IMG/VR virus record: IMGVR_UViG_3300020477_000089 | Span: 1-30,739 of that record | Reading direction: 5' to 3' (one strand) | DNA: 30,739 bases | DNA from: a virus | Part shown: positions 1,904 to 21,791 of the stretch, piece by piece | Numbering within the stretch: position 1 is the stretch's first letter | Layout of the letters: each line of letters begins with the position of its first letter | The notes under the pieces: model-generated | What the model was told of the DNA's origin: nothing | What the model saw: the letters and a program-made list of their open reading frames with translations, nothing else | The model's database searches: none | Position numbers and translations under genes: made by a program

Positions 1904-1951
1904 ATGAAACTCACAAAAACACAACTTAAGCAGATTATTAAAGAAGAACTT
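1904..1951 (+). repeat. Tag-encoding dispersed repeat, copy 1
   Basis: Forty-eight bases encoding the shared N-terminal peptide. Related copies open genes at 2251, 2807, 7487, 7726 and 18552. The core CAACTTAAGCAGATTAT is shared with the copy at 2251. Confidence 0.7.
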
Positions 1952-2254
1952 GAAGCCGCTCTTGATGAAAGCCAGTGGCAAGATAATGTTGACGCAGATG
2001 CGAAATGCGCGAAGAAACATAAGCGCAACTCTCCTGAATATGAAAAGTGTTTAGATGAGCAAGGTATTGCTGAAAATTTGGATGAAAAGAAAGACGATAA
2101 TTGGATTCAAGATGCTGAAAAGGACATTGAAAGACGCGGTACCGAAGGGGTTTGCACTGGCAAGAACTTTGGTAGCGACAAATGTCCCCCGGGATCCAAG
2201 CGGTACAATCTTGCAAAGACGTTCCGAAAGATGGCCAAGGATCGCAAGAAGTGA
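1904..2254 (+). CDS. Tagged small protein, putative capsid-targeted internal protein 1
   Basis: 116 residues. It begins with the window's recurring N-terminal peptide, MKLTKTQLKQIIKEEL, and the tag ends in Leu-Asp-Glu at residues 20-22. That fits the Leu/Ile-x-Glu cleavage rule of T4-type prohead proteases. The body after the tag has four cysteines (the pattern C-x14-C near residues 34-49, and CTGKNFGSDKC near 83-93) and a lysine/arginine-rich C-terminus. The cysteines could bind zinc or form disulfides. A second Leu-Asp-Glu lies just after the first cysteine pair. The stop overlaps the next start as GTGA. No function is recognisable; packaging in the head is inferred from the tag. Confidence 0.75.
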   Translation: MKLTKTQLKQIIKEELEAALDESQWQDNVDADAKCAKKHKRNSPEYEKCLDEQGIAENLDEKKDDNWIQDAEKDIERRGTEGVCTGKNFGSDKCPPGSKRYNLAKTFRKMAKDRKK

Positions 2255-2298
2255 AAATTACAAAACGCCAACTTAAGCAGATTATCAAGGAAGAGCTT
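2251..2298 (+). repeat. Tag-encoding dispersed repeat, copy 2
   Basis: The first 32 bases are identical to those at 2807-2838, including the GTG start, although the downstream protein bodies are unrelated. This is the closest pair in the family. Confidence 0.8.
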
Positions 2299-3324: not shown

Positions 3325-3465
3325 ATGTTAAGAAAACTCTCACGATATCTTTTTAAGAAAGGCATAAGCGATTGGGAACTAATTAAGATTATCGGGATCG
3401 TTGGCATGGGCGGTCTTGTTATAGGAGCGATGCTTTATGGAGCAATAGGAGCACTAATGTTATGA
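3325..3465 (+). CDS. Small single-span membrane protein (46 aa)
   Basis: A 46-residue frame from ATG 3325, two bases after the previous stop. It fills an otherwise empty gap, and its stop overlaps the next start as ATGA. The first 12 residues are basic (MLRKLSRYLFKK). Residues 20-46 are a continuous hydrophobic, Gly-rich span (IKIIGIVGMGGLVIGAMLYG and onward), predicting one transmembrane helix with the N-terminus inside. The tight coupling on both sides argues that it is a real gene. Function unknown; a membrane-active or small regulatory role is possible. Confidence 0.65.
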   Translation: MLRKLSRYLFKKGISDWELIKIIGIVGMGGLVIGAMLYGAIGALML

Positions 3466-4295
3466 AAATTACAGAACAAATATTAAAAGAGATGATCATA
3501 AAACAATTGAATGAGGCCACCTTAAAAGACTGGCTTCTAGGTTTGGCAACATTCGGAACAGCGGCCAATATCGCAGTTGGCGGCGCCGCCCTACTAGATA
3601 AAATGTCCGAAGATGCTGTAGAGAGCGGTGTTCAAGAATTACAGAGAATCGAAAAAGAGCAGGGCCCAGAAGCGGTCGAAGATCTTCGTTCGCAATCTCC
3701 CCAAGGAAACGAGACCATTAATGCTATTTGGGATCAGTATGATTCTCTGCGCGCCGAAGGCGGCTATACAGACGAACCATCGCCGGCGGATTCTTGGAAC
3801 GAAAACAGAACGAGATTAGAGCACCTTATTGTCGAAGAACTTAAAAAAGTACTTGAAGAGCGCACCGAAATTGGATCATCAGGTAACCCAGTTGAACACT
3901 TGCACAAACTAGTTTCTACAAATGCCTATTCAGATTTGAATCAGATAGCAACCTATGTAGCAAATAGGATATATGCATCTAATGTGCAGCAAGATAGGCA
4001 AGGATTCATTCAAGCCATTCGACAAGCAATACCCCAACTAAAGGAACTTCAAGGCGATCTAGGTCAAGCCGCGGCTGCTTATGCTCAATCTTTAAAGGGT
4101 GTTTCGGCTAAATGGGAAGCCGCCCTGGAAGCAATCAACACTTCTCTTGATGCCGGCGCCCAAGCTGCAGATACAGCAGCAAATCCACTAGCAGCCGCTA
4201 AAGATCGCATGCGACAAGCCTACGCAAACAGAGAACAAGATCCAGAGGAATATGAAGCTGCTCGGCAAGCTTATCGTGCCGCCCGCGGTCGATAA
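3462..4295 (+). CDS. Tagged protein with membrane-like segment, putative internal protein 4
   Basis: 277 residues. The N-terminus MKITEQILKEMIIKQLNEA is a shorter, divergent form of the shared tag ending in Leu-Asn-Glu/Ala, a very good match to the T4 prohead-protease rule. A hydrophobic Gly/Ala segment at about residues 24-45 (LLGLATFGTAANIAVGGAAL) could insert into a membrane after delivery. Residues 116-133 (RTRLEHLIVEELKKVLEE) repeat the tag's helix pattern inside the protein. The C-terminal half is Ala/Gln-rich and helical with a basic end. The gene is followed by an intergenic promoter region, so it is probably the last gene of its transcription unit. Function unknown. Confidence 0.75.
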   Translation: MKITEQILKEMIIKQLNEATLKDWLLGLATFGTAANIAVGGAALLDKMSEDAVESGVQELQRIEKEQGPEAVEDLRSQSPQGNETINAIWDQYDSLRAEGGYTDEPSPADSWNENRTRLEHLIVEELKKVLEERTEIGSSGNPVEHLHKLVSTNAYSDLNQIATYVANRIYASNVQQDRQGFIQAIRQAIPQLKELQGDLGQAAAAYAQSLKGVSAKWEAALEAINTSLDAGAQAADTAANPLAAAKDRMRQAYANREQDPEEYEAARQAYRAARGR

Positions 4296-4379: not shown

Positions 4380-7300
4380 TTGAAGTTTGCACATATAAGC
4401 GATACTCATATCAAAAATTTGAAGTATCATTACGAGTATAGAATTGTTTTTGAGCAATTATACGAAACATTACGAGAACAAGAGGTCGACTACATCGTCC
4501 ACTGCGGAGATATCGCACACACCAAAACACAAATCTCACCAGAGTTTGTGGAGATGTGTTCCGACTTCTTCCGTAACTTGGCGTCGATCGCGCCCACATA
4601 TATTATCTTGGGTAACCACGACGGCAATCTAAAAAACAGCAGCCGCCAGGACGCGCTTACGCCGATTGTAGATGCGTTAAATTTATCCGGACTCAACTTG
4701 CTCAAAGATTCTGGTGAAACACATTTGGACGATAAGTTCTGCCTTAATGTGTTATCTGTATTTGATCGAGAGCAGTGGATCAAACCAAGCAATCCAGACA
4801 AGATCAATATCGCACTTTACCATGGCTCAATTAGCAACTGTAAGACTGATGTTGGCTGGACAATGGTTAATGGCGAAGACACAATCACAATCTTTGACGA
4901 CCATGATTTTGCAATGCTTGGTGACATTCACAGGCGACAGTTCTTGGATGAAGAAGGCCGCGTGTGGTACGCCGGCTCGACAGTCCAACAGAATCACGGC
5001 GAGACTAACGACAAGGGTATTCTTATTTGGGATATTAAGTCAAAGGATGATTGGGATATTGAGCCGATTGTGCTCAAGAATCCAAAGCCATTCTTTACGA
5101 TTCCCCTTACGTTAAAGGGGCGAATGCCTAAAAAGATTGAAGTGCCGACAGGCGCACGACTTCGACTTGTAAGCAACAACAATTTGCCGCTCGATGTAAT
5201 GCGCAGAGCAATGGACATTGCGAAGCACCGCTTCAAGCCTGAAAGTATTTCGTTTTTAAATCGTGCTAGCGGTCAACGCGGAAATGTGGAGGATATTACC
5301 AACGGACTGAAGACAGAGAACCTGCGAGATCCAAAGATCCAAGAGGAACTCATTGATGAGTACCTTAAAGACTTTCAGGTGCCTGCTGACACTATGGAAA
5401 AAGTTTATGACCTTAATCGTGCGTATAATAAAATTATTGAAGAGAAAGAGGAGATAGCCCGCAATGTAAATTGGAAACTAAAGTCATTTGAATTCGATAA
5501 CCTTTTTAATTATGGAAAAAATAATGCTGTTAATTTTGATAGGCTTAATGGTATTGTTGGCATTTTCGGAAAGAATTTCAGCGGCAAGAGTTCAATTATC
5601 GATGCTGCTCTTTATACTCTTTTTAATACAACTTCAAAGAACGAGCGAAAAAACCTCAACGTCATTAATCAGAATAGAGATAGCGGACGAGGACGACTTA
5701 CAATTGAGGCCAACAATGCCACATATACAATCGAGCGAGAGTCGGTAAAATATACAAAGCGATTGAAAGGTGTTGAGACACTTGAGGCGAAGACCGATCT
5801 GAACTTTGAGGTGCGCGATCACGTTACTGATGAGGTGACCTCTCTTAATGGCACAACTCGTAATGAAACAGACGCAAATATCCGAAAGCATTTTGGAACG
5901 ATTGATGACTTTATGGTTTCTTCACTGGCGTCGCAGCATGGCGCATTAGCGTTTATTGACGAAGGTTCAACCCGTCGGAAAGAGATCATTGCTAAATTTT
6001 TGGATTTAGAGGTGTTTGAAAAGAAGTTTAGAATGGCTAAAGAAGATTCTGTTGAAGCCAAGGTTATGCTTAAGAAGCACGAAGATAAGAATTATGATGA
6101 AGAGATTGATAGCATCCATGAGACCCTTGAAGATCATCGTGATAGTGTAAAAATTAATAAGCACTTGTGCACAGAGTTGAGAGAGGAGTTGTCGCTCTTG
6201 CAAGATAGCGCCGGCGCCCTGGAGTCGCAAATTTCTGCAATTCCTAATGAGCTAATCGATATCGCTAAACTTCGCGAAGAACAAAAGGGAAAGACACAAA
6301 AAGTTCTAATGCTCACTGAAAAAATTAAAGAGCAATCAAAAGAGATTGAAAGAAAGAAGCGTGTAGCTAAAAACTCTAGGATAAAAATTGACGAAGTTGA
6401 TGTCGGAAAGCTGATGAAGCTTCAGCGAGAGATCGATGTTTTACACAATAAAGAAAAGAAAGCCACGGAAGAAATAAAAGAAATTGGAAAGAAAGAAAAG
6501 CTTCTTAATGACATTCCGTGCGGCGAAAGCTTTCCTAAATGTAAGTTTATTCGTGATGCTCATATAGCTGTTGCCAGTAAAGAGTTGGCCGAACACGAAC
6601 TTCGTCATGCTATGATTGATCTATCGGCGCTTAACCCAAGTGAGGTGTTTACACAGCTTATGGAGCATGCGCGCATTACAGAATTAATCAAGAAAATTGA
6701 CACCGAAAAAACGCAAGTTGAGCTTGAGCGCGAACGCAATAAAACTGTCAAGTCAAAAATCGAGCTTGCGCTTAAAGATATCTCATTGAAAATCAACGAG
6801 TATGAGGACAACAAGGAAGCCATTGAAAATCTTGAAATGTTATTGGGTGAAAAACGCGAACTAGAGAAAAGTATCGAGAGCAAGAACAAGAAGATTGTAT
6901 CTTGCGAAGAAGAGACGCTTGACCTCGTTAAACTTGTGGGTTCCTACGAACAACGTGTAGAAACACTGCGAGAGCAAAAGCAAGAATACCACGACTTAAG
7001 ATCATCGTTTGCGGCATATGATTTGTTTATGCGATGTATGCACCCTAACGGAATTGCTTACGATGTTATCAAAAAGAAAATACCAGTAATCAATCAAGAG
7101 ATTGCAAAGGTGCTTGCTAACATTGTGGAGTTTGAGATTTTCTTTGAAAGCTCTGGCAACAAGTTTGACATCTTTATTAAGCACCCGCAATATGATGAGC
7201 GCCCGATTGAAATGGCGTCAGGTGCAGAGAAAACGATGGCTGCGATGGCTATTCGATTGGCGCTTCTATCTGTGTCTTCATTGCCCAAGGGTGACTTATT

Positions 7301-7487
7301 CATACTAGATGAGCCAGGAACAGCACTAGACGAAGAAAATATGGAGGGTTTTATTCGAATCTTGGAACTAATTAAAGTGTATTTTAAGAACGTTTTGCTT
7401 ATCTCACACCTTGATTCGCTCAAAGACTGCGTTGATATGCAAATTGTTATAGACAAAAAACGCGGATACGCTAGGGTTAATCAATAA
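4380..7487 (+). CDS. Single-chain Mre11-Rad50 (SbcD-SbcC) fusion, gp47/gp46-like
   Basis: A 1035-residue protein combining nuclease and SMC-like ATPase, which process DNA ends for recombination-dependent replication. The N-terminal Mre11/SbcD phosphoesterase shows SDTH (7-10), CGDIAH (42-47), GNHD (78-81), YHGS (147-150) and GDIH (181-184). After a linker near 340-365 the Rad50/SbcC part begins: Walker A GKNFSGKS (397-404), long coiled coils, a degenerate zinc hook (CGESFPKC, 714-721, with six rather than two residues between the cysteines), signature ASGAEK (946-951), Walker B LFILDE (973-978), D-loop ALDEEN, and LISHLD (1008-1012). T4 carries these as two genes, 47 and 46; here one frame runs through with no start codon at the junction. 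The start is TTG with GGAGGG upstream. The stop overlaps the next ATG (TAATG). Confidence 0.93.
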   Translation: MKFAHISDTHIKNLKYHYEYRIVFEQLYETLREQEVDYIVHCGDIAHTKTQISPEFVEMCSDFFRNLASIAPTYIILGNHDGNLKNSSRQDALTPIVDALNLSGLNLLKDSGETHLDDKFCLNVLSVFDREQWIKPSNPDKINIALYHGSISNCKTDVGWTMVNGEDTITIFDDHDFAMLGDIHRRQFLDEEGRVWYAGSTVQQNHGETNDKGILIWDIKSKDDWDIEPIVLKNPKPFFTIPLTLKGRMPKKIEVPTGARLRLVSNNNLPLDVMRRAMDIAKHRFKPESISFLNRASGQRGNVEDITNGLKTENLRDPKIQEELIDEYLKDFQVPADTMEKVYDLNRAYNKIIEEKEEIARNVNWKLKSFEFDNLFNYGKNNAVNFDRLNGIVGIFGKNFSGKSSIIDAALYTLFNTTSKNERKNLNVINQNRDSGRGRLTIEANNATYTIERESVKYTKRLKGVETLEAKTDLNFEVRDHVTDEVTSLNGTTRNETDANIRKHFGTIDDFMVSSLASQHGALAFIDEGSTRRKEIIAKFLDLEVFEKKFRMAKEDSVEAKVMLKKHEDKNYDEEIDSIHETLEDHRDSVKINKHLCTELREELSLLQDSAGALESQISAIPNELIDIAKLREEQKGKTQKVLMLTEKIKEQSKEIERKKRVAKNSRIKIDEVDVGKLMKLQREIDVLHNKEKKATEEIKEIGKKEKLLNDIPCGESFPKCKFIRDAHIAVASKELAEHELRHAMIDLSALNPSEVFTQLMEHARITELIKKIDTEKTQVELERERNKTVKSKIELALKDISLKINEYEDNKEAIENLEMLLGEKRELEKSIESKNKKIVSCEEETLDLVKLVGSYEQRVETLREQKQEYHDLRSSFAAYDLFMRCMHPNGIAYDVIKKKIPVINQEIAKVLANIVEFEIFFESSGNKFDIFIKHPQYDERPIEMASGAEKTMAAMAIRLALLSVSSLPKGDLFILDEPGTALDEENMEGFIRILELIKVYFKNVLLISHLDSLKDCVDMQIVIDKKRGYARVNQ

Positions 7488-7534
7488 TGAAAATCACCAA
7501 GTCCCAACTTAAAGAGATTATTAAAGAAGAAGCA
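7487..7534 (+). repeat. Tag-encoding dispersed repeat, copy 4
   Basis: Tag-coding DNA about 90% identical by eye over 45 bases to the copy at 7726. The two proteins differ completely after the tag. Confidence 0.7.
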
Positions 7535-7729
7535 GATAGCCTTTTAAAAGAATCTCGTACATTTAATTTATATGAAATTGAAGAGATAATTGATGAGATG
7601 CTGGGAGGCAGAGCGGATTCTTATCTTGCCGATCAACTTCAAGCGTGGTGGGATGGATTACAAGACGATCCTGCGTTTATGGAACTAGGAAAAAATCCAA
7701 GCGATAAGTTTAGCGGGAGAAAAGGATGA
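7487..7729 (+). CDS. Tagged small acidic protein, putative internal protein 5
   Basis: 80 residues, start coupled to the fusion gene's stop (TAATG). The tag MKITKSQLKEIIKEE runs into Leu-Lys-Glu at residues 20-22, a candidate protease site followed by Ser. The remaining 58 residues are mostly acidic and helical, with a Trp pair (QAWWDGLQDD) and a short basic end. That would leave a mature peptide of about 6.5 kDa. No cysteines, no recognised fold. The ATGA overlap with the next tagged gene suggests the two are translated together. Function unknown. Confidence 0.75.
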   Translation: MKITKSQLKEIIKEEADSLLKESRTFNLYEIEEIIDEMLGGRADSYLADQLQAWWDGLQDDPAFMELGKNPSDKFSGRKG

Positions 7730-7773
7730 AAATCACAAAATCCCAACTTAAACAGATTATTAAGGAAGAGCTT
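7726..7773 (+). repeat. Tag-encoding dispersed repeat, copy 5
   Basis: Tag-coding DNA closest to the copy at 7487. It shares the CCCAACTTAAA core. Confidence 0.7.
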
Positions 7774-8088
7774 CGCGAAGCGCTTAATGAAGAGGAGTAC
7801 GACTCTGCGACTGATGCACGTCTTGTAAGATCTGGTCCGCGTTATAAAAAGCGAAGATACTCTGGAAGCCAGCCGTCACAAGTGGATATAGAGGCTCGCA
7901 AAAGGTGGGAAGAGAAAAATCCGAAGGACAGAAGAGACGTGGACTACTACAAACGCATGCTAGCCATGCCAGGAATGATGATGAGTTCCAGCAATCCCTG
8001 GCAACAGACACTCATCGATCATGCCCAAAAAGAAATCGACGCCGGCGAAACTCTTCCTTTGCCACAAAAACCAGAATCGGAGCAATAA
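7726..8088 (+). CDS. Tagged small basic protein, putative internal protein 6
   Basis: 120 residues, start overlapping the previous stop (ATGA). This is the clearest example of the tag: MKITKSQLKQIIKEEL followed by Leu-Asn-Glu at residues 20-22, with the cut predicted before an acidic EEYD. The body has a strongly basic stretch (RSGPRYKKRRYSG), then Arg/Lys/Glu-rich helices, then a Met-rich segment (MLAMPGMMMSSS). The basic patch would suit binding to packaged DNA. The FtsZ-like gene starts immediately after the stop. Function unknown. Confidence 0.78.
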   Translation: MKITKSQLKQIIKEELREALNEEEYDSATDARLVRSGPRYKKRRYSGSQPSQVDIEARKRWEEKNPKDRRDVDYYKRMLAMPGMMMSSSNPWQQTLIDHAQKEIDAGETLPLPQKPESEQ

Positions 8089-9228
8089 ATGAGCACGAAA
8101 GACAACGATAACGAATTTGATTTTCTGCCTCCCGCAGAACCACCACCCTCTTTTAATCAGGAGAAAGACAGCTATCATGAAGAAGTTGCAGCAGAGGATT
8201 TCGGAATGGTTGAGGACTTTGGATTACAGATGGAATACTCTGATGAAGATCTCCTCCCAGAAAACACTGCTCCTTCTTCGTTGAACGTTGGATTTGTTGG
8301 AGTCGGCGGTGGAGGCAATAAAATGGCTAACGCTTTTATTGAACTTGGTTTTAATAAGACATTGCTTGTGAACACCACAGGCAAAGATATTCCCAAGAAC
8401 GTTGAAGAAGATCACGTTGTTCTTATTCCCGATAGCGATGGCATCGGTAAGAATACAGAATACGGAAAGGAAGTCTTGTCACAGAACGGCGCCGTTGTTG
8501 AAGACGCGCTACGCATTAAGCTTGGAAAGGTAGACTGGCTGTTTGTTTTAGCTGGTGGGGGCGGCGGAACCGGAAGTTCTGTGACCGCACTTCACCCGGT
8601 ATTCGAACGTTATATGAAATCCGTTCAGTCTTCCGGAAAAGTTGTTTATGTGGTTTCTTGGCCAACAGCACAAGAAAACCTTAACCCCACAATCGCTAGA
8701 AATGCGCTGACGCTGGCTAATGACGTAGCCAAGTACCCGCACATCATTCTAGATAACGAGCGCGCCACGCGCTTGCTTCGTGGCAGAATCGGCATGCTCG
8801 GCATGTATCCTGTCGCCAACACACAATTTGCTAAGTCGTTCGCCCAGGTGCTAAAACTCTCCACCGAGGATTCACCGATTCAATCTTTTGATAGTAAAGA
8901 TCTGGAAACATGCTTGGGCAATGACGGAAGAGCTTTTCTCGGCTCAACCATGATAAAAGATCCAAATACTGGAAAGCTTGGATCGGTGATCCTCCATAAC
9001 TGTATGAACAGATCAGCCTGTCCTCCACCTAAAGGCAAAGCCGCCGCAGGTTCGTTAATCTTAGTGGCCTCTGAGGAAATGGTAGCAGACCCGAGAGTCA
9101 GTAAAAATATTGAGTCGGCAATCGCTTATGTCGGCGGTAGATGCGAGACACTTTTCTCTGGCGTTTATGTGCGAAAGAATGTGCCTGGATTGATTGCGAT
9201 ACTAAGTATGAATGGATTAGCAACATGA
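8089..9228 (+). CDS. FtsZ/tubulin-superfamily GTPase
   Basis: 379 residues. Residues 66-375 follow the FtsZ fold in order: VGVGGGGNKMAN (70-81) matches the first nucleotide-binding loop. LAGGGGGTGSS (154-164) is the tubulin signature loop. WPTAQEN (191-197) matches the loop after it, and ILDNERATRLL (220-230) the nucleotide-contacting helix. SFDSKDLETC (266-275) matches the catalytic T7 loop with both Asp residues kept (268, 271), followed by GRAFLGSTM as in FtsZ's GxAMMGxG. The C-terminal beta domain is present. It should bind GTP and polymerise. An acidic, unstructured 64-residue N-terminal extension replaces FtsZ's short one, and there is no conserved FtsZ C-terminal tail. Phage tubulins (PhuZ, TubZ-like) position capsids or DNA, so a cytoskeletal role during infection is likely. 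The start abuts the upstream stop; ATGA overlap downstream. Confidence 0.85.
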   Translation: MSTKDNDNEFDFLPPAEPPPSFNQEKDSYHEEVAAEDFGMVEDFGLQMEYSDEDLLPENTAPSSLNVGFVGVGGGGNKMANAFIELGFNKTLLVNTTGKDIPKNVEEDHVVLIPDSDGIGKNTEYGKEVLSQNGAVVEDALRIKLGKVDWLFVLAGGGGGTGSSVTALHPVFERYMKSVQSSGKVVYVVSWPTAQENLNPTIARNALTLANDVAKYPHIILDNERATRLLRGRIGMLGMYPVANTQFAKSFAQVLKLSTEDSPIQSFDSKDLETCLGNDGRAFLGSTMIKDPNTGKLGSVILHNCMNRSACPPPKGKAAAGSLILVASEEMVADPRVSKNIESAIAYVGGRCETLFSGVYVRKNVPGLIAILSMNGLAT

Positions 9229-10699: not shown

Positions 10700-11087
10700 A
10701 GATCCCGATCGGATTGCGGCTATTGAAAAAGCCATCGCAGAGAAGTATGGCAAAGAAGCCGTTCAGAACCCCAAGGGCAACTGGAACGAGAATAAAGAAA
10801 AAGAATACCTTGAGCAATCGAAAGAATTTTATAAAAAAAAATACAAAAATGATGAGTGGCAAGAAAAAGTTGATGTTAATGGTATTAAGATCTCAAAAAA
10901 ACTACTTAATAGAGAATCTTTAAAAAGTTGTCCTGTCTGTGGGTCTTTCCCAAAGAAATCTATGGATGATGTTTGTCTCGTCAAATTTGAGTGCTGCAGT
11001 AGTTGTCATATAAAGTATGTCGAGGGAAGAGAAGAAAGATGGCTAAAAGGATGGCGCCCAAATGAAAATTACCAAAGCAAGACTTAA
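10692..11087 (+). CDS. Zinc-ribbon hypothetical protein
   Basis: 131 residues from ATG 10692, behind TAGGGGG and overlapping the previous stop by 8 nt. An earlier in-frame ATG at 10671 has no ribosome site. The N-terminal half is charged and helical (DPDRIAAIEKAIAEKYG, then a Lys/Glu-rich stretch). The C-terminal half holds CPVC (80-83) and CCSSC (101-105), a plausible four-cysteine zinc ribbon, then a basic end with Trp residues (ERWLKGWRP). Zinc ribbons of this size usually bind nucleic acid or a protein partner. The next gene starts 26 nt before its stop, an unusually long overlap here. Specific function unknown. Confidence 0.65.
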   Translation: MNKDPDRIAAIEKAIAEKYGKEAVQNPKGNWNENKEKEYLEQSKEFYKKKYKNDEWQEKVDVNGIKISKKLLNRESLKSCPVCGSFPKKSMDDVCLVKFECCSSCHIKYVEGREERWLKGWRPNENYQSKT

Positions 11088-11406
11088 AAAGATAATTTTA
11101 GAAGAATTAGAAGAAATCCGGATTAACAGCCTTAATGAGGCCCCGGTAGCCCAACCAGAGATTGGTAAGGCCAAAGCTACAGTCTCCCAGGTTCGATCAG
11201 GCGCCCTCGATGCAGCTAGTTCTCAAGGCGAACAAGGTATAACCAGCCAGGAACGAGGACTTATTAAACAACTTTCTGATATGCTTGTCGGCGCGTCTAA
11301 AGAAACCAATATTTTGTCTGGCGCAATAGTAACGAGAATTAAACAGTTGGCCGCTGAATTACAAAAGGCTCAAAAAACACAACCACAACAAGGAGTCCAA
11401 AAATAA
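11062..11406 (+). CDS. Tagged small protein, putative internal protein 7
   Basis: 114 residues. The tag is MKITKARLKKIILEELEE; a four-residue extension delays the Leu-Asn-Glu/Ala cleavage candidate to residues 24-26. The rest is Ala/Gln-rich and helical with no cysteine (GALDAASSQGEQGITSQERG), a hydrophobic helix near the middle (LIKQLSDMLVGA), and a Lys/Gln-rich C-terminus. It starts inside the previous gene and couples to the next (TAATG). It lies just upstream of terminase among head genes, which fits a virion protein. Function unknown. Confidence 0.72.
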   Translation: MKITKARLKKIILEELEEIRINSLNEAPVAQPEIGKAKATVSQVRSGALDAASSQGEQGITSQERGLIKQLSDMLVGASKETNILSGAIVTRIKQLAAELQKAQKTQPQQGVQK

Positions 11407-11936
11407 TGGCAACAGTATACGAAATCGTTCAAGGTCTGTCTCAAGCAGCCGCCAACGCATATGATGGTGCGCTCACCGAAGATGGCGATGCGCTCAAGGC
11501 CGGCCTTCAAAGAGAAGAGGGGGATCCTATTCTAGACAAACGAATTATTGATGGCTTTGGCGTTAAATTTTACGGAAACATGATGTGCTTGACGTATGAG
11601 TCGGACGTATTGTTGAGAGAGGTATACGGCACCGGCTTTGAAGATGAAATCAGACAAAGAGTGGCGGATATTTCTTCCTTTTTGAAGAAGGAATACAAGA
11701 AGATTACTGGCCGCAGTGTCTCTCTTACTGAAGAAGGGGACATTGATGTGTTTGTGCAAAGTAGCTCTAATATGCGCACGTGGGTTCAAGCAAAAATGCA
11801 CTATAAGATCGGAGGCCTTTCCGAAGAAATGAGCATCAACAATACAGGTGATCGTCCCGAAGAACAATGGAAGTCTTTTGTGGAGCTAGGAGGCTGGGGT
11901 AAGCGCCCCCCCAACGATAAGCGGAAGAAAGAGTAA
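11406..11936 (+). CDS. Conserved-looking phage protein, possible virion component
   Basis: 176 residues, translationally coupled on both sides (TAATG at each end). It does not carry the tag. It begins MATVYEIVQGLSQAAANAYDG and looks like one globular alpha/beta domain: helices at 85-100, a beta-rich middle (FGVKFYGNMMCLTYESDVLL), then VQAKMHYKIGG, and a basic Pro/Lys tail. I believe close relatives sit beside terminase genes in uncultured marine phages, which would suggest a head or packaging role, but I cannot verify this here. No catalytic motif is visible. Confidence 0.6.
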   Translation: MATVYEIVQGLSQAAANAYDGALTEDGDALKAGLQREEGDPILDKRIIDGFGVKFYGNMMCLTYESDVLLREVYGTGFEDEIRQRVADISSFLKKEYKKITGRSVSLTEEGDIDVFVQSSSNMRTWVQAKMHYKIGGLSEEMSINNTGDRPEEQWKSFVELGGWGKRPPNDKRKKE

Positions 11937-12757
11937 TGAAAATCACACTTGAAAGATTACGCGAGATTATAACCGAGGAAGTTATCAAAGAGGAGCTTGC
12001 TCGCGAGATAGCTGCGCCGGCCATCGCCGCCATGCTTCAAGGTTCTGCGGCCGAATCTACCTCTGAAATTTTCGGAGATGTGTTCACTCATATGTACGGT
12101 GAAGAGGCTTTAGAGGCAGAAGCAGATAAGATATATGCCGATGACGAAGACGCAGAGCCCGAAGAACAAAGCTTCCCCACAGAGTATCAGCCCGGTGGCG
12201 CCTATGGCGATCGGCCTGAAATCAGATTAGGAAGACGGCGCCCAGTGAAGGAGATCATTCAAGAGGAATATTATATATATTTGATCGAAAGAAAATATGA
12301 TTTATTGTCTGAAGCCTCCGACTTTGCCCCCAGCGCTGAAGAACAAGCCGCCTCTGTGGCATCGTCAAAAATTCGATCTCCTAGACAGATTTCTCCAGTT
12401 GATAAATACCCAGGATTTTTAGATGTTCTTGAGGATCCCGCTTCAACTCAAACTGACATCATGGCTGCCGAAATGGCCAAAGAGCGATATGAACTTCTTC
12501 AAAAGTTGGCCGTCAAATCAATAAAACAAATCAAAGATATAGATGTATACTGGCAAAAGTATTTAAATTTAGGTGGCACTATAAGAGATGCGATCGCTGC
12601 AGCGCCCGAGGGTACCGATATTGTAGGAAGCTTAGCGAAACTTCATCAAAGATTGAGAAACCGCCAAGAGCACGAGGGTGCGGAAGATGATCCGGACTCT
12701 ATGCGCGATTTCCAGGGCAATCCAATCTCCCGCTGGTCAAAGTCTCAAGATGATTAA
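11936..12757 (+). CDS. Tagged protein with second tag-like helix, putative internal protein 8
   Basis: 273 residues. It opens with a variant tag, MKITLERLREIITEEVIKEE, whose nearest protease-like site is Ile-Lys-Glu at 17-19. A second tag-like helix at residues 103-126 (PVKEIIQEEYYIYLIERK, then LLSE/A) carries a clean Leu-Ser-Glu/Ala site. Cleavage there would remove an acidic N-terminal propeptide of about 126 residues and leave a mature basic/helical domain of about 147. Residues 60-80 are strongly acidic (Glu/Asp/Ala). The gene couples directly to terminase (TAATG). Packaging is inferred from the tag; no enzyme motif seen. Confidence 0.65.
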   Translation: MKITLERLREIITEEVIKEELAREIAAPAIAAMLQGSAAESTSEIFGDVFTHMYGEEALEAEADKIYADDEDAEPEEQSFPTEYQPGGAYGDRPEIRLGRRRPVKEIIQEEYYIYLIERKYDLLSEASDFAPSAEEQAASVASSKIRSPRQISPVDKYPGFLDVLEDPASTQTDIMAAEMAKERYELLQKLAVKSIKQIKDIDVYWQKYLNLGGTIRDAIAAAPEGTDIVGSLAKLHQRLRNRQEHEGAEDDPDSMRDFQGNPISRWSKSQDD

Positions 12758-14351: not shown

Positions 14352-16349
14352 ATGGCGCCCCCTACAAGAAATCCCGCAAATGACCAAAACCGTCTTTTTA
14401 AGGCTTTAACCAGATTATTCTCTGGCCCTATTGTTAACTACCGCTCCCAGACGGGACGACGAATCCGACGTCAACATTTAGATAAATTTTCGTCTCGCTT
14501 CAAGTCAACATCGGGCCAACAGTTTAAAAAATCTATTTACAATCCTTTGGATGTGGTGGCTACAAATGCTGTGGCGAATCAGCGCAGAACCGAGCGCTAC
14601 GTCGACTTTGATCAAATGGAATACACCCCAGAGATAGCCTCGTCGTTAGATATTTATGCGGATGAAATGACCACTTATTCTAATTTAAGTCCCATGTTAA
14701 ATATTAAATGTTCGAATGAAGAGATTCGAGCAGTTCTAACTATCTTGTTCGACCAGATCTTAAATCTACAATATAATTTATTTGGCTGGGCGCGCACTAT
14801 GTGCAAATATGGAGACTTCTTTCTGTATTTAGATGTAGATGATAAGTTCGGTATTAAGTCCGTAATTGCTCTTCCTCCGCAAGAACTAGAGAGATTAGAG
14901 GGTAAGGACTCAACCAACCCCAATTATATCCAGTACCAGTGGAATAGCGCAGGAATCACTTTTGAGAATTGGCAGATTTCTCATTTTCGTATTTTAGGTA
15001 ATGATAAATATGCTCCTTACGGAACTTCTATTTTGGAACCAGCGCGCCGGATTTGGCGGCAGCTTATTCTTATGGAAGATGCAATGATGGCATATCGAAT
15101 AGTGCGCTCTTCGGAGAGGCGCGTTTTTAAGATTGATGTGGGAGCAATCCCGCCTCAAGATGTTGAGCAATATATGGAAAAGATTGTCACCCAACTTAAA
15201 AGACATTCTGTTGTTAATCCAGATACGGGCCGTGTTGACTTGCGATACAACCCAATGTCAATTGAGGAGGATTATTACATTCCTGTGCGCCCTGGAACTG
15301 CTACTAGTATTGAGTCTCTTGCTGGGGCCCAAAATATTACGCAAATTGATGACATTAAATATCTTCGCGACAAGTTGTTCTCTGCGCTTAAGATTCCACA
15401 AGCATATCTTGCAATGGGCGAAGGCGCCGCGGAAGACAAAACGACATTGGCGCAAAAGGATATTCGCTTTTCGCGTACCGTACAGCGTCTGCAGCGAGTT
15501 ATCACTGCCGAGCTGACGAAAATTGGCATTATTCACCTTTATACTTTAGGATTTAGGGGAGATGACTTGTTGGCGTTTGAGGTGCTACTAAACAATCCCT
15601 CCAAGATTTCAGAACTTCAAGAAATCGAACACTGGAAACAAAAGTTTGACATCGCAGGGTCTGCCACCGAAGGTTATTTCTCCCGTAGTTGGGTAGCGGA
15701 ACATATCTTCGGAATGTCCCATGAACAATTTGTCCGCAATCAGCGAGAAATGTATTATGATCGGAAGCACGATGCAGCCCTTCAGGCCGTTGCAGAGGCT
15801 GCAGCCGCCGGCGAAGGTGGCGGCTTGGGTGGTGATCTGGGCGGTGATCTGGGCGGTGATTTAGGTGGTGATTTGGGTGGTGATCTAGGTGGTGATCTAG
15901 GTGGTGATCTTGGCGGCGAAGAGATGCCAGCAGGCGAGGCAGACGCCGGTGGCGATGACTCTGCTTTATTGGCGGTACCTCCTGGGTCACGAAATTCCCC
16001 TCGACTTACTCCGGGCTCTAAAGGTAAGGCCTATCGTCCTGTTAAAAGCGATAAACGTAACTCTGGTGCCCGCAGTCGCTCTTATGCCTCGCACTACGCG
16101 CGAGAAAAATCTAGTGCTACATTACGAAATGTCGTTCCGGGAATGGCCGACATTCAGGGTGTCTCAAAAATGACAGGATTGTCGAACGGTATTTATGAGA
16201 ACAAGGCGCCTATTTATAAGATGAATGAATTAAAAGAAGAAGAAAAGCTTTTTGAAGTTCACCACACTGTTCGCACTCTGATTGAAGATTTAGAACAACA
16301 CAGCAACGATTTACTAATGGAGCAAAAGAATGAAGATAAGGCACAATAA
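14352..16349 (+). CDS. Portal protein (gp20-like) with GGDL-repeat extension
   Basis: 665 residues. It forms the ring at the DNA-entry vertex, docks terminase and nucleates prohead assembly. Hallmarks of the gp20 family: RYVDFDQMEYTPEIASSLDI (83-102), the RSSERRVFKIDVG segment near 252-264, and EDKTTLAQKDIRFSRTVQRL in the core. T4 gp20 is about 524 residues. The excess here is C-terminal: after residue 480 come seven GGDL repeats (493-520), an acidic Gly/Ala segment, a basic Ser/Arg stretch and a helical end. This tail would face the capsid interior, where the core binds. The next gene overlaps by 20 nt. Some Leu-x-Glu sites lie in the tail, so it may be trimmed by the protease. Confidence 0.93.
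   Translation: MAPPTRNPANDQNRLFKALTRLFSGPIVNYRSQTGRRIRRQHLDKFSSRFKSTSGQQFKKSIYNPLDVVATNAVANQRRTERYVDFDQMEYTPEIASSLDIYADEMTTYSNLSPMLNIKCSNEEIRAVLTILFDQILNLQYNLFGWARTMCKYGDFFLYLDVDDKFGIKSVIALPPQELERLEGKDSTNPNYIQYQWNSAGITFENWQISHFRILGNDKYAPYGTSILEPARRIWRQLILMEDAMMAYRIVRSSERRVFKIDVGAIPPQDVEQYMEKIVTQLKRHSVVNPDTGRVDLRYNPMSIEEDYYIPVRPGTATSIESLAGAQNITQIDDIKYLRDKLFSALKIPQAYLAMGEGAAEDKTTLAQKDIRFSRTVQRLQRVITAELTKIGIIHLYTLGFRGDDLLAFEVLLNNPSKISELQEIEHWKQKFDIAGSATEGYFSRSWVAEHIFGMSHEQFVRNQREMYYDRKHDAALQAVAEAAAAGEGGGLGGDLGGDLGGDLGGDLGGDLGGDLGGDLGGEEMPAGEADAGGDDSALLAVPPGSRNSPRLTPGSKGKAYRPVKSDKRNSGARSRSYASHYAREKSSATLRNVVPGMADIQGVSKMTGLSNGIYENKAPIYKMNELKEEEKLFEVHHTVRTLIEDLEQHSNDLLMEQKNEDKAQ
15828..15911 (+). 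repeat. Seven tandem 12-bp units encoding GGDL
   Basis: In-frame tandem units of the form GGTGGTGATCTG with third-base variation (ggt/ggc, ctg/tta/ttg/cta/ctt). Protein sequence is exact while DNA varies, so the peptide repeat is probably maintained by selection rather than being a fresh slippage expansion. Confidence 0.9.
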
Positions 16350-17697: not shown

Positions 17698-18201
17698 ATG
17701 TCTGAAATGAAGCTGATAATGGAAAGCTGGCGAAAAGTTTTGACTGAAGCCGACGAAGAAGGAGTTTCCAATATTAAGAGAGTAGAAGATGTTAAGACTA
17801 TAGGTGATTTAAAATCCTTAATTCAAACGGCTCAACTTAAAAAAAGAGGAGACCAGCTAAAAGGAGGTGTCATTGATGCAGCAAAGAATGCCGTGGTTGA
17901 TGAATTGGTGGGAAAAATCCCTGGCTTGGCAACAGCTAAATCGCTGTTTGATTTTGCAAAAAGCACATACCAGCTTCCAGATGAATCCAGAACCGGCACT
18001 GCTTTAGATTTCCTAGACGTGGATGACGATGTTTCCAAAATTGTTGATGATCCTATTGAGAATGCGTTTTTAAAAACTTTAGGCGCCACATTAAAAACAA
18101 TGGATGATAGAACACCGCTTGAAAACCTAAACATCACCAAGCTACTGCAGGCCTATATTTCCAAGAACTTTAACAAAAGAACCGTATCGGGAACCGAATG
18201 A
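17698..18201 (+). CDS. Putative prohead core/internal protein with WRK-type leader
   Basis: 167 residues behind a strong ribosome site (TAGGAG). The N-terminus MSEMKLIMESWRKVLTEA differs from the common tag but also ends in Leu-Thr-Glu/Ala, matching the prohead-protease rule. I believe other T4-like phages have leaders of this WR-x-x-L-x-E style on core or head proteins. The body is helical and charged, with a short hydrophobic Gly/Ala stretch (VDELVGKIPGLATAKSLFDF) and a basic C-terminus. Its position between portal and protease matches the T4 core genes 67/68. A cleaved core or internal protein is the best guess. ATGA overlap follows. Confidence 0.6.
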   Translation: MSEMKLIMESWRKVLTEADEEGVSNIKRVEDVKTIGDLKSLIQTAQLKKRGDQLKGGVIDAAKNAVVDELVGKIPGLATAKSLFDFAKSTYQLPDESRTGTALDFLDVDDDVSKIVDDPIENAFLKTLGATLKTMDDRTPLENLNITKLLQAYISKNFNKRTVSGTE

Positions 18202-18551: not shown

Positions 18552-18599
18552 ATGAGAATCACCAAATCTCAATTGAAGCAGATTATCGCTGAAGAGCTT
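18552..18599 (+). repeat. Tag-encoding dispersed repeat, copy 6
   Basis: Tag-coding DNA, more diverged (CTCAATTGAAGCAGATTATC) but aligned codon for codon with copies at 1904, 2251 and 7726. Confidence 0.65.
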
Positions 18600-19034
18600 G
18601 AAAATATGGTCGAGAGCAGCGAACTAGATGAAGGCATCCTCGATCGGCGCCTCGCCGCCCTAAAAGGTTGGGGCAGCAAAGCGAAGGGATCGCTCGCCTC
18701 CTTCGCGCTAAAGCAAACGGGCCGCAAACAGGCAGCAAAAGATGTGAAAAAATCTCAAAATAGATTATCAGACAATAAAAAGATCTCTCATATCATGAAG
18801 GTTAAACATAAAGAGCTGGCCAGCTTATACACGGAGATGTCCAGAGATTTGAGTTTATTAGAAGTTGATCAAGCCGAGGATGTGAAAGCTGCTCTCACGC
18901 ACCTAGAGGACGCCATGAAGGGCTTTAAAGAGATAGCACAGGCTTTGGAAAATGAGATAAAAGCGCTTGCATCCAAGCGCGCCCCACAAGAGGACGCAGA
19001 TGATGTTGACCTCCCAGACCCAGAGGAAGCATAA
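18552..19034 (+). CDS. Tagged protein, putative internal protein 9
   Basis: 160 residues from ATG 18552 (a GTG two codons earlier is also in frame). AAGGA lies about 9 nt upstream. The tag MRITKSQLKQIIAEEL is followed by a short acidic spacer and Leu-Asp-Glu/Gly at residues 25-27. The mature part starts with a very basic region (DRRLAALKGWGSKAKGSLAS, then KQTGRKQAAKDVKK), probably DNA-binding. A long amphipathic helical region and an acidic C-terminus (DADDVDLPDPEEA) follow. It sits immediately upstream of the protease that would process it. Basic internal proteins of this size match T4 IPI-III in style, not in sequence. Confidence 0.72.
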   Translation: MRITKSQLKQIIAEELENMVESSELDEGILDRRLAALKGWGSKAKGSLASFALKQTGRKQAAKDVKKSQNRLSDNKKISHIMKVKHKELASLYTEMSRDLSLLEVDQAEDVKAALTHLEDAMKGFKEIAQALENEIKALASKRAPQEDADDVDLPDPEEA

Positions 19035-19037: not shown

Positions 19038-19643
19038 ATGCCAAAGAAACTTTTACGAGAATACTATGAACTATGCGAAGGCGGCGTTTGTCAAGATCTT
19101 TTGACCGAAGAGGAAAAGAGATACGTAGCAAACGGCGGCATGATTTTGTCTGGTAAACTACAAGAAGCTGATGTTCAAAACGGCAATGGTAGAATTTACC
19201 CTCACCGTGTTTTAATGCGCGAGATGAAAAACTACCAAAAACTCGTACAAGAAAAAAGAGCGCTCGGAGAACTAGATCATCCAGAAGATTCGGTTATAAA
19301 TTTGAGAAATGCTTCGCATATGATTACTGAAGTGTGGTGGGATAACAAGAATGTTATGGGAAAAGTTAAAGTATTGAATACTCCTTCTGGAAAAATCCTC
19401 CAAGAGCTGGTCAGCGATGGAGTTAAACTTGGAATCTCCTCGCGAGGAATGGGTTCGGTTACTGAAAGCGCAGGTCAAACGATTGTTGAGGATGACTTTC
19501 AATTAATCTGTTTTGATTTTGTGTCGGAGCCATCCACTCCGAATGCATTTATGATGCAAGAGGCCAAAAATTTCAAAAACAATGTATTCACCAAAGCCGA
19601 TCGTATCAATAGACTGTTGAACGAGGTTTTGGACAATGAGTGA
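19038..19643 (+). CDS. Prohead protease (gp21-like serine protease)
   Basis: 201 residues, close to the 212 of T4 gp21. It cleaves core, capsid and internal proteins inside the prohead after Leu/Ile-x-Glu, then degrades itself. Family features: the N-terminal strand around KLQEADVQNGNGRIYPHRVL (40-59), GELDHPED with the likely catalytic His81, GISSRGMGS with the nucleophile Ser134 or Ser135, and the following CFDFVSEPS segment. LLNE near the C-terminus is a possible self-cleavage site. The gene ends 8 nt inside the next gene. Its presence makes the recurrent Leu-x-Glu sites on neighbouring proteins meaningful. Confidence 0.92.
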   Translation: MPKKLLREYYELCEGGVCQDLLTEEEKRYVANGGMILSGKLQEADVQNGNGRIYPHRVLMREMKNYQKLVQEKRALGELDHPEDSVINLRNASHMITEVWWDNKNVMGKVKVLNTPSGKILQELVSDGVKLGISSRGMGSVTESAGQTIVEDDFQLICFDFVSEPSTPNAFMMQEAKNFKNNVFTKADRINRLLNEVLDNE

Positions 19644-21369
19644 CTGGAGCAGTTTTCAGGGTGATAAGGGTCGCCACGACAAGTGGAGAGAATTTCTTTT
19701 TGAAGATAAGAATAAAGGCGACAAAGAGCAATTAAATGAAGTCAGCTTCTTACAGAGTGTTGGTTTCCAACGGCTGAAGCCAGAGGAAGACGCAAGAATA
19801 CAGGCGATCGCGGATGAGATATTGGCTTCACCCAGGCTCGATCTCCTTTTTAACAAAGAGGCAGGCCGTATGAACCCCATCGTTGAATATAGTCCTATAC
19901 TCTTTTATATGCTTCAAACGATTGGTTGGCCGGCTAACAACGTCAACTTATTGCGCGCCACAAGCCTCCTTTTGGACTTGGGAGGTGTCAACCCCGCCTC
20001 TTTCGCCGGTAACCAGGAGCACCTGGACGAATGGCTAGAGGCCCTCAAGCGCGTAGAAAACAAGCTTAAAGAAGATATCAAAAAAGAAGTGGAAAAAGCC
20101 CGAAAACAAACTGATAGTGCCGGAATCGCCGGCGCCCTCGAATCCTTGGAAAACTACGAAAAACGCCCAAAATGGTGGCCCAGTGACTTGTGGAAGGGGG
20201 CCAAGAGAAAGGCCAAATCTCTCCAATCTCTAATCTTCAAAAGCGAAGAAGAAGAGGTAGAAGCCGAAGAAGAAGAGAAGGCCGCAGCGGAGCCCGAGAA
20301 GACCAAGAAGCGCGGCTGGTTCGGAAAGAAGAAGAAGAAGAAGACAGAGGAAGATCCCGACCGCTGGAAGGCGCGCTCTCGCGAACCAGTCTCCGACGTC
20401 GACTCTCTTGATGGCGATGAATCCGAATCCTCGGACGACCGCGAAAGAATTGGCGGAACAGGCTCGCGAGCCCGAGCAATTTGGTCCCCTAGAGAAGAAG
20501 AACCTTCGTCGGATGATGGTCCCGATCGGACCCCGGGCCCTTCTGACACCGGCACAGCTGATTATAATTGGGGCAATAGCTTTGGCATCAATTCAAAAAG
20601 CAATGCAGATTCGCTATTAAAGACATTTGAAACTCGCGGGGTACCGCCGGCGATCGCTAACTCGATTGCGGATTTAATTGCAGATCTAGCTGATGATGAA
20701 GATATTGTGCTTGAAGCGGTCAGTCTGGTGGGGCGCGCCGATGAGCCCCAAAGAGTTATAAGTGCCGAATCGGCTCGCGAATTATTTGATTTTCTTGCGT
20801 CTTTAAATATGGACAAGCCCACACAGAAAAACGTTTTAAAAGCTTTAAATCGTTGGGGCAACACCAATACTGTGCGCTTTGAAAAGCCGTCTCCCAAAGC
20901 CCCTGCCTCCGAAGAGCCGCCCCCAACGACCCCCTCGGAACCAGAGGTTTCTACTGACGAAGAGCCTGCCACAGACCCCGAGGACTCTGAAGAGGTCGAA
21001 GTCGAATTGGTGTTAAAGGACGATCCAGAAGCATCAGACGCAGAACCAGAAGCATCAGACGCAGAACCAGAAGCATCAGACGCAGAACCAGATAAAGAGA
21101 TTGACTCGGCGGCAATCAAAAAAGCTTTTGACAAAGCTGTTGAAGCATGGCACGAAGTAACAAAGAAGTCCGCACCACCCCCCGCGGTTCCCCAGAAGCA
21201 GTGGGTTGATAGTTACCGCAAAGCAACAGAGGAATTTTCCAAAGCGTACAAAGCCTACAAGGATCTTTCGCCGACACAAGAACTTGGAGATCCAAGGAAT
21301 AAACATAGTGAGCCATTGAAGGAACACAAAATCTATCAAAGATGGAGACTAATAGCAGGAATAAAATGA
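19636..21369 (+). CDS. Large low-complexity prohead core-like protein
   Basis: 577 residues. The N-terminus has a WREFLFE/D motif and a second site, QLNE/V, both prohead-protease-like. Residues 1-190 are helical. About 195-310 is low complexity: Glu runs, then Lys runs (FGKKKKKK), then Ser/Asp/Pro. A second helical domain spans roughly 325-420. Next comes an acidic Pro/Ser/Glu linker with three exact PEASDAE units. The C-terminus is YQRWRLIAGIK, close to the scaffold protein's DRMKRLAGIK. That shared ending suggests both dock on the same capsid or portal surface. Position after the protease and before the capsid gene fits a core component. A strongly charged, repeat-bearing protein like this may evolve quickly. 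Confidence 0.65.
   Translation: MSDWSSFQGDKGRHDKWREFLFEDKNKGDKEQLNEVSFLQSVGFQRLKPEEDARIQAIADEILASPRLDLLFNKEAGRMNPIVEYSPILFYMLQTIGWPANNVNLLRATSLLLDLGGVNPASFAGNQEHLDEWLEALKRVENKLKEDIKKEVEKARKQTDSAGIAGALESLENYEKRPKWWPSDLWKGAKRKAKSLQSLIFKSEEEEVEAEEEEKAAAEPEKTKKRGWFGKKKKKKTEEDPDRWKARSREPVSDVDSLDGDESESSDDRERIGGTGSRARAIWSPREEEPSSDDGPDRTPGPSDTGTADYNWGNSFGINSKSNADSLLKTFETRGVPPAIANSIADLIADLADDEDIVLEAVSLVGRADEPQRVISAESARELFDFLASLNMDKPTQKNVLKALNRWGNTNTVRFEKPSPKAPASEEPPPTTPSEPEVSTDEEPATDPEDSEEVEVELVLKDDPEASDAEPEASDAEPEASDAEPDKEIDSAAIKKAFDKAVEAWHEVTKKSAPPPAVPQKQWVDSYRKATEEFSKAYKAYKDLSPTQELGDPRNKHSEPLKEHKIYQRWRLIAGIK
21025..21087 (+). repeat. Three perfect 21-bp tandem repeats
   Basis: Three back-to-back copies of a 21-base unit, each encoding PEASDAE, inside the acidic linker of the 577-residue core-like protein. 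The copies are identical at DNA level, unlike the portal GGDL repeats, so the expansion is recent or still varying. Confidence 0.9.
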
Positions 21370-21791
21370 AAAAATCAGATTTAAAACAATTAATTAAGCC
21401 CCTTGTAAAAGAGTGTATTCACGAAGTCCTCATCGAAGAAGGTCTTTTATCAAATGTTGTAGCCGAAGTGGCAAAAGGCATGCAGGGGAGCCTTATAGTA
21501 GAAACACCACAAAAATCTTCCGAAAAACTATTTAAAGAAGACGCCATGGCTAATCGTAAGGCGCGCCAAACACGCACACAACTGCAAAACCACCGGTCCA
21601 AGCTTATGAATTCAATTAATGCAGATGCATATAACGGAGTTAATTTATTTGAAAATACCGAGCCGATGAATTCGTATGAATCCGGGAGCCCAAAGGCCGG
21701 ATCCGTGGATCTAGGATCCCCAGGTGATGCCGGGGTGGATATTTCTAATTTACTCGGTGGCGCCTCCGCAATTTGGCAGAAGATGAAGTAG
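21366..21791 (+). CDS. Head-region protein with divergent tag, putative internal protein 10
   Basis: 141 residues from ATG 21366, overlapping the previous stop (ATGA). A longer frame from 21342 lies inside the upstream gene. The N-terminus MKKSDLKQLIKPLVKECIHE is a divergent version of the tag. Leu-Ile-Glu at about residues 22-24 is a candidate cleavage site. A mid-section is basic (MANRKARQTRTQLQNHRSKL). The C-terminal part contains GSVDLGSPGDAGVDISNLLGG and looks like a short ordered tail. The sequence has the feel of a conserved structural gene rather than variable cargo. Function unknown. Confidence 0.6.
   Translation: MKKSDLKQLIKPLVKECIHEVLIEEGLLSNVVAEVAKGMQGSLIVETPQKSSEKLFKEDAMANRKARQTRTQLQNHRSKLMNSINADAYNGVNLFENTEPMNSYESGSPKAGSVDLGSPGDAGVDISNLLGGASAIWQKMK

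Follow-up and report, generated by a model that had tools for sequence, protein, structure and literature searches.

We identified, in a marine T4-like virus of bacteria, many unrelated proteins that share one short N-terminal tag, which is apparently cut off. This tag (K-tag, consensus MKITKxQLKxIIKEEL..LxE) opens nine genes of the window, as we call the entire 30,739-nt stretch analysed (IMG/VR record IMGVR_UViG_3300020477_000089). We consider it very probable that this tag serves as a removable propeptide by which accessory cargo is targeted to the capsid, loaded into the head and co-injected. The genes concerned, designated by their start coordinates, are listed with the head genes and with carriers of a second tag (W-tag); a slash marks a predicted or candidate cut.

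1904..2254, + strand: K-tagged gene, 116 aa; tag residues 1-22, nt 1904-1969; predicted cut LDE22/S; 45 bits
2251..2805, + strand: K-tagged gene, GTG start, 184 aa; tag nt 2251-2316; predicted cut LQE22/A; 48 bits
2807..3322, + strand: K-tagged gene, GTG start, 171 aa; tag nt 2807-2872; predicted cut LDE22/G; 47 bits
3462..4295, + strand: K-tagged gene, weaker tag, 277 aa; tag nt 3462-3515; predicted cut LNE18/A; 16 bits
7487..7729, + strand: K-tagged gene, 80 aa; tag nt 7487-7552; predicted cut LKE22/S; 42 bits
7726..8088, + strand: K-tagged gene, 120 aa; tag nt 7726-7791; predicted cut LNE22/E; 49 bits
11062..11406, + strand: K-tagged gene, 114 aa; tag nt 11062-11139; predicted cut LNE26/A; 35 bits
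11936..12757, + strand: K-tagged gene, 273 aa; tag nt 11936-11992; candidate cut IKE19/E; 24 bits
12757..14343, + strand: terminase large subunit gp17 (PF03237 E=2e-8)
14352..16349, + strand: portal protein gp20 (PF07230 E=1e-77)
17698..18201, + strand: W-tagged gene, 167 aa; tag MSEMKLIMESWRKVLTE/A, nt 17698-17748
18552..19034, + strand: K-tagged gene, 160 aa; tag nt 18552-18632; predicted cut LDE27/G; 41 bits
19038..19643, + strand: prohead protease, T4 gp21 type, Peptidase_S77
19636..21369, + strand: W-tag-like N-terminus, 577 aa; HDKWREFLFE/D, then QLNE/V; directly 3' of the protease
21366..21791, + strand: conserved small head-region gene with homologues, not in the tagged set; sub-threshold matrix score
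27486..28709, + strand: probable scaffold/core protein in the gp22 position, directly before gp23
28746..30572, + strand: major capsid protein gp23 (PF07068 E=6e-73); conserved candidate cut LRE60/A (N-terminal alignment)

K-tag searches were scored by a position-specific matrix with a threshold of at least 9 bits. A sequence-only reading had listed ten tagged genes, and all ten gene starts and tripeptides are present as it gave them, including the five tripeptides at exactly residues 20-22 (LDE in 1904, LQE in 2251, LDE in 2807, LKE in 7487 and LNE in 7726). Nine of the ten genes reach the matrix threshold. The tenth, 21366, opens with a different N-terminus (MKKSDLKQLIKPLVKECIHEVLIEEG) and does not reach the threshold. 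It is a conserved gene, with 18 homologues and 52-53% identity in the syntenic relatives G004 and G012, and we therefore place it outside the tagged set. Since the matrix gave 0 matches on reversed peptides and 9 in 185,200 shuffled window peptides, the K-tag family is not a product of chance. Within the K-tag itself lies another candidate site, I-K-E (residues 12-14), that had been overlooked.

In viral contigs, the K-tag was found on ∼470 non-redundant unrelated cargos (470 greedy cargo clusters in all); in the first contig set it spans 169 single-linkage clusters. No match occurred among 84,980 prokaryote (bacterial and archaeal) genomes. The prediction that the tagged set is larger than that of T4 is borne out by nine members in this 30.7-kb fragment and a maximum of 32 K-tagged genes per contig, in one of 273 kb. 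Searching cultured phages by tblastn with 22-residue tags is too insensitive for showing absence. The nearest cultured relative identified, Flavobacterium phage immuto of Flavobacterium sp. LMO8, has related N-termini on its genes 191, 194, 195, 200 and 202, but was rejected as a cultured K-tag phage, as its candidates (e.g. MKKSQLRQIIKEALD) score below threshold. In the papers searched we found no report of the K-tag peptide and no later description of such a tag.

The gp21 homologue that had been recognized in the window is gene 19038 (PF03420 E=7e-32; T4 gp21 structure 5jbl E=7e-19), which, aligned to 5jbl, keeps the catalytic residues His81 (in ALGELDHP) and Ser135 (in ISSRGMGS). Among tag contigs, a gp21-type S77 protease is encoded by 11/11 that are 150 kb or longer and by 35/64 of all lengths, as compared to 22-30 expected for fragments; it is present in LR756508 too. 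Tag contigs in which the protease is missing number 14 in the first set and 15 in the second. We examined the 14 as possible cases of the tag in phages that lack a prohead protease and found no contradicting contig: none of the 14 has gp23 or an HK97 capsid protein, and the portal, present in only two, is at or near a contig end.

Conservation of the K-tag stops at [IL]xE, residue 22-23. An [LI]xE tripeptide at residues 16-32 occurs in 108/167 proteins, as compared to 69.5±4.6 after column permutation. When residue 15, which follows IxE14, is small, a downstream LxE is found in 16/64 (25%) proteins versus 246/358 (69%) otherwise (p=1e-10), and the conservation of residues 17-22 is lost. The same contrast is seen within one contig (1/10 versus 12/14, p=5e-4); among K9-type tags alone the contrast between the short and the long mode is weak (p=0.06). 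Tags with one site and tags with two compensate for each other. In ∼10 cargo families the tag is swapped, with homologous cargo bearing a K-tag in one phage and a T4-like tag in another, and the homology begins at or near the LxE site, as in ...IGSIIE/GDGQVSNMGG versus MKKLFENWRKHLNE/GDGQVSNRGG. In the gp23 of those tag phages that were aligned, the T4 cleavage position retains an LxE, either L[RK]E or one much like it. Points against a cleaved propeptide are the modest preference for A/G/S at P1' (37% versus 23%) and the ∼30-35% of K-tags that have no strict downstream [LI]xE, many of which have M/V/FxE or depend on IxE14. The bounded conservation, the compensation, the tag swap, the gp23 LxE and the protease link all support the earlier proposal of a capsid-targeting propeptide cleaved by a gp21-type protease, which we amend in three respects: the members are nine rather than ten, there is another tag class, and the cut may fall at either of two positions.

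This second tag, T4-like and overlooked by the sequence-only reading, occurs on two window genes, 17698 (MKLIMESWRKVLTE/A) and 19636 (KWREFLFE), and has the consensus MKxLFENWRKFLxE/. The W-tag of 17698 closely resembles the capsid-targeting sequence (CTS) of T4 ipII/ipIII, MKTYQEFIAE/A as read from the T4 record. Residues 4 and 7 of the T4 CTS are needed for targeting and residues 8 and 10 for processing (PMC9026906); 17698 agrees at all four positions and 19636 at part of them. The 52 W-tags collected have W/F, then F/Y/H/V, then L/I/V/M and a terminal E, the last being built into the search pattern; a looser pattern gave 39 matches versus 5 in shuffled controls. A homologue of 17698 (L210; 33%, E=4e-23) bears a K-tag in place of the W-tag. 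Gene 17698 is absent from G004 and G012, and 19636 from these and every other locus compared. Searching the K-tag for the T4 CTS pattern (aromatic 4, F/Y 7, I/L 8, E 10) gave no W/Y...F-L-x-E, and by this comparison the K-tag is a tag class separate from the T4 CTS.

The cargos are highly variable. Homologues in G004/G012 were found for 0/9 tagged versus 20/23 untagged window genes (p=8e-6). Five tagged genes (2251, 3462, 7487, 7726 and 18552) have no homologue in G004/G012 or the other loci compared, and 1904 has none in G004/G012; 2807 has a 95% homologue in L017 that bears the same tag, and 11062 has partial homologues in L002 and L109 with other N-termini. The 11936 family recurs in ∼11 contigs, and its slot in G004/G012 is occupied by another tagged gene; within the 11936 protein there is a further tag-like stretch, PVKEIIQEEYYIYL. 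A minority of tagged proteins look like multi-tag polyproteins. Searches of Pfam, PHROGs and PADLOC with the ten listed proteins and 150 cargos returned almost no matches; because 148/150 K-tag cargos lack any Pfam domain, their effector role is suggested by analogy and variability. AlphaFold models were poor (pLDDT 49 for 17698 and 57 for 11936). W-tag cargos include Zeta toxin, ADP-ribosyltransferase, GNAT and NUDIX proteins.

The sequences themselves show a common tag, conservation that ends at the site, an exchange of tags, linkage with the protease and variable cargo; docking, cleavage, packaging, injection and effector function are what we infer. Newly made tagged proteins would dock on the prohead core via the N-terminal amphipathic helix, possibly with the 27486 product, which has homologues in G004, G012 and immuto, as the docking partner, and become enclosed in the head. 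The gp21-type protease would then cut after [IL]xE, at IxE14 if residue 15 is small and otherwise at an LxE near residues 16-27, releasing the cargo within the mature head. The cargo would leave with the DNA and act as an accessory factor in the newly entered host, where anti-defence or takeover is the most likely role. The second tag, nearly that of T4 itself, would have the same role, with cargos moving between both tags. It is reasonably likely that uncultivated marine T4-like and jumbo phages in this way practise modular injection, with two interchangeable removable tags, tens of effectors per virion and some multi-tag polyproteins.

It is also conceivable, if rather improbable, that the tag targets the prohead core and is cut, but that its cargos serve in assembly, as core or scaffold-accessory proteins, and are consumed or kept in the head and not injected. 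The T4 core also contains gp67, gp68 and gp22, all cut by gp21 (PMC9026906), and two tagged genes reside in the head cluster, 11936 directly upstream of the terminase gene and 18552 with the protease gene immediately downstream; these two could be core components rather than cargo. Assembly proteins, however, should be conserved in G004/G012, where the other head genes are 46-83% identical and none of the tagged genes is found. One genome has 32 different cargos, far from the head cluster, and the W-tag cargos include enzymes without an assembly role.

Two other explanations are less probable still. If the N-terminal helix were a permanent interaction or oligomerisation domain, e.g. for a host or phage partner, and never cleaved, LxE would be a by-product of helix composition. 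The tag is indeed amphipathic, with hydrophobic residues at 8, 11-12, 16 and 19-20, but the L-E linkage at variable positions is 8 s.d. above column permutation, whereas LxxxE and [VFMAT]xE are not enriched and LxxE barely so; the compensation between the two modes and the start of tag-swap homology imply that a cut, or at least a boundary, is needed at the site, and we regard a permanent domain as very improbable. Tagged genes are often adjacent and their ribosome-binding sites strong, as would suit a similarity that resides in the DNA, as a common translation or promoter element or as a recombination cassette, and not in a functional peptide. Conserved residues nevertheless have varying third codon positions, distant phages keep the same peptide with different codons, and the upstream DNA has only an ordinary ribosome-binding site. 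On the codon variation and the ordinary upstream DNA we dropped this explanation, the least credible of those considered.

To our knowledge, only three small internal proteins and Alt of T4 are known to enter by a capsid-targeting sequence. If the K-tag works likewise, sequence alone would mark the genes injected at time zero among the thousands of unknowns of marine T4-like and jumbo phages, and would yield hundreds of candidate anti-defence proteins and a second well-defined targeting peptide for protein loading into phage heads. If the modular-injection reading is true, hundreds of co-injected anti-defence and takeover proteins, as yet unknown, would become recognizable from their sequence. 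The rule for the position of the protease cut is testable.

The closest known system is that of the T4 internal proteins IPI, IPII and IPIII (and Alt), in which, as here by sequence, a short N-terminal propeptide is common to otherwise unrelated proteins; the [LI]xE site, the S77 protease in the same genome and the non-conserved cargo are alike, and the key CTS residues are retained in the W-tag, both in the window and in its relatives. All three T4 internal proteins are injected, each blocking different GmrSD restriction enzymes (PMC12373910). Unlike the T4 CTS, the K-tag is 14-27 residues long, has no detectable similarity to MKTYQEFIAE and often has two candidate cut sites, and it is carried by far more genes than the three internal proteins and Alt. 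The giant phages SPN3US and phiKZ have a diverged gp21-type protease and 20- and 24-residue N-terminal propeptides on some head proteins (PMC10052503). These short propeptides are cut after a Glu-containing motif, as predicted for the K-tag, but they differ in the cleavage motif reported and in length, most SPN3US propeptides being much longer at 111-254 residues, and we found no report of one tag common to unrelated proteins by the dozen. Also related are the polyvalent proteins, which are large or multidomain and are believed to enter along with the phage DNA, in that one W-tag protein matches ART-PolyVal; in contrast, most cargos described here are small single proteins that bear a dedicated, putatively removable tag. 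By these comparisons the putative loading system is a new, much enlarged variant of the internal-protein system of T4.

The window, a 30.7-kb linear IMG/VR record, comes from a T4-like myovirus and encodes:

Terminase gp17, portal gp20 and gp23
gp21-type prohead protease, gene 19038 (PF03420, E = 7e-32)
Probable scaffold gene, directly 5' of gp23

The sequence-only reading had described ten genes that share an N-terminal tag, together with a gp21 homologue. The PF03420 match confirms the homologue, and the N-terminus and LxE tripeptide given for each of the ten genes are found in the sequence. A position matrix, seeded from tags selected by pattern, recovered nine of the ten (16–49 bits), with 0 matches in reversed peptides and 9 in 185,200 shuffled peptides. 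Gene 21366 was dropped from the tagged set because it fell below the threshold and is conserved, with 18 homologues. The tag, MKITKxQLKxIIKEEL..LxE (K-tag), is best read from sequence as a capsid-targeting element that would be removed by the protease and that marks a large group of proteins (cargo), quick to change, which would be packaged and are probably injected effectors. The tagged gene at 11936-12757 (+ strand) may have arisen by fusion of two tagged genes; its second half occurs as a separate K-tagged protein in another locus (L067:4516-4989), and a tag-like stretch lies where the halves meet.

The information content of the K-tag reaches background level directly past residue 22-23. 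An [LI]xE tripeptide, the predicted cut site (slash below), lies at residues 16-32 in 108 of 167 cargo representatives, compared with 69.5 ± 4.6 when each column is shuffled among proteins, a permutation that preserves helix-like column preferences. The same permutation showed no enrichment of the control patterns LxxxE and [VFMAT]xE, and LxxE was barely enriched. The residue after the first [LI]xE site is A, G or S in 37%; the figure is 23% following other glutamates and 18% following LxE in the protein body. K-tag residues 12-14 are [IL]-x-E in 92%. If residue 15 is A, S, G or T, a downstream LxE occurs in only 16/64 proteins and residues 17-22 are unconserved; with E at this position the LxE occurs in 246/358, and conservation covers residues 16-22 (Fisher p = 1e-10). 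This contrast is found within a single contig (1/10 versus 12/14, p = 5e-4) and among R9-type tags (p = 4e-10), and is weak among K9-type tags (p = 0.06). A 273-kb contig has a second spacing class with LxE at 25-27. Protease cutting would explain these shifts in LxE position and presence; a fixed, uncut helix fails to account for them.

T4 gp21 cleaves after L/I-x-E (PMC9026906), and the window gp21 retains His81 and Ser135. In an alignment of gp23 from ~30 tag phages, nearly all carry L[RK]E or a similar LxE just before the body, mostly followed by A or S; T4 gp23 has FLTE/A at the corresponding place. As for whether the tag accompanies a gp21-type (S77) protease, it does in all 11 tag contigs of at least 150 kb. 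S77 occurs in 35 of 64 tag contigs of at least 16 kb, with 22-30 expected if each 200-300 kb genome had one, compared with 2/11 contigs chosen by an arbitrary 17-mer; 2,535 of 50,697 cultured phages match the window gp21. None of the 14 first-set tag contigs lacking S77 encodes gp23 or an HK97 capsid; in the only two with a portal gene, that gene lies at or near the contig end.

A degenerate DNA pattern for MKITKxQLKxIIKEE matched at least 119 viral-contig stretches and none of 84,980 bacterial and archaeal genomes. Among the matches listed, with the arginine-rich variant included and selection on tag residues 2-12 only, we identified 746 tagged proteins, which form 470 non-redundant cargo groups, from a marine-biased sample of fragmentary contigs. 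We counted 32 tagged genes in the 273-kb contig, 11 in one of 120 kb and 9 in the window. The public 484-kb huge-phage genome LR756508 encodes an S77 protease and has ~14 similar N-termini in 100 kb, many with LxE at residues 20-22. Its protease matches in two pieces within a single 576-aa open frame (LR756508.1:156507-158102), which suggests that an intein or some other insertion interrupts it. K-tags were also located within long ORFs (24, against 1 in reversed controls):

L214:4074 and 4578 (418-aa ORF)
L210:1107
L220:470
L183:693
L083:1353
L151:11017 (Flavobacterium phage immuto, 841 aa)

One long ORF has three K-tags, and some internal tags have LxE immediately upstream. These ORFs resemble polyproteins with several cargos that would be cut at each tag, or the result of fusion between adjacent tagged genes.

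Two relatives, G004 and G012, share the window gene order, with gp23 71-72% identical. Homologues there were found for 20/23 untagged window genes versus 0/9 tagged genes (p = 8e-6), and the same slots hold other tagged genes (the primase–gp46/47 interval, the surroundings of the tubulin gene and the place ahead of terminase). Of 150 K-tag cargos, 148 had no Pfam family (exceptions YkuD and FliG_C), and PADLOC gave 0 matches. Other observations in the window are:

4380-7487 (+), a 1035-aa gene that joins a calcineurin-like phosphoesterase and an SMC-type ATPase, probably gp47 and gp46 fused into one SbcCD-like recombination nuclease
8089-9228 (+), a Tubulin/FtsZ-family GTPase (PF00091, E = 1.6e-8), here carried by a T4-like phage; its identity to the G004 and G012 versions is 94%, higher than for other shared genes, and it was not found in G008 or G030
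21798-22043 (+), ribosomal protein bS21 (PF01165, E = 4e-9) flanked by head genes; Microcystis phage Mel-JY01 has bS21 in the same neighborhood
19636-21369 and 27486-28709, whose C-termini both read R-x-x-x-(I/L)-A-G-I-K or a close variant

In immuto and Mel-JY01 the probable core proteins have KLAGI(I/V)K as their C-terminus, and the immuto gene 188 protein has FRRMQKLAGIITE near its N-terminus; this may be a head motif that these proteins share.

Searches with tag-stripped cargo gave homologues with other N-termini. About 10 cargo families carry the K-tag in one phage and a second tag, MK.LFENWRKFLxE (W-tag), in another. The clearest swap is between L051 (K-tag, ...IIKEEIGSIIE/GDGQVSNMGGFSGGLGAL) and L116 (MKKLFENWRKHLNE/GDGQVSNRGGLTGGLGAL); in several pairs the alignable part begins deeper in the cargo, not exactly at the site. 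Genes 17698 (MKLIMESWRKVLTE/A) and 19636 (HDKWREFLFE/D) flank the window protease on its two sides with a tag that differs from the K-tag, and the L210 homologue of 17698, itself W-tagged, bears the K-tag (33%, E = 4e-23). The W-tag is present on 52 proteins, and its cargos include Zeta toxin, ART-PolyVal, DUF3990, GNAT and NUDIX proteins. In one 147-kb contig with 11 K-tagged genes, six or more W-tagged genes (MKKLLTEWRKFLxE) are clustered as well (L143, 5581-8982, − strand).

The tag system would work like that of T4. Compared with T4 ipII/ipIII (MKTYQEFIAE/A, from the T4 record), the W-tag keeps aromatic-4, F/Y-7, I/L-8 and E-10; experiments on this capsid-targeting sequence assign residues 4 and 7 to targeting and 8 and 10 to processing (PMC9026906). 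By sequence the W-tag groups with the T4 element, whereas the K-tag stands apart as a separate class. The cargo variability resembles that of the T4 Ip genes, which have the leader alone in common and inhibit GmrSD nucleases, a different one in each case (PMC12373910).
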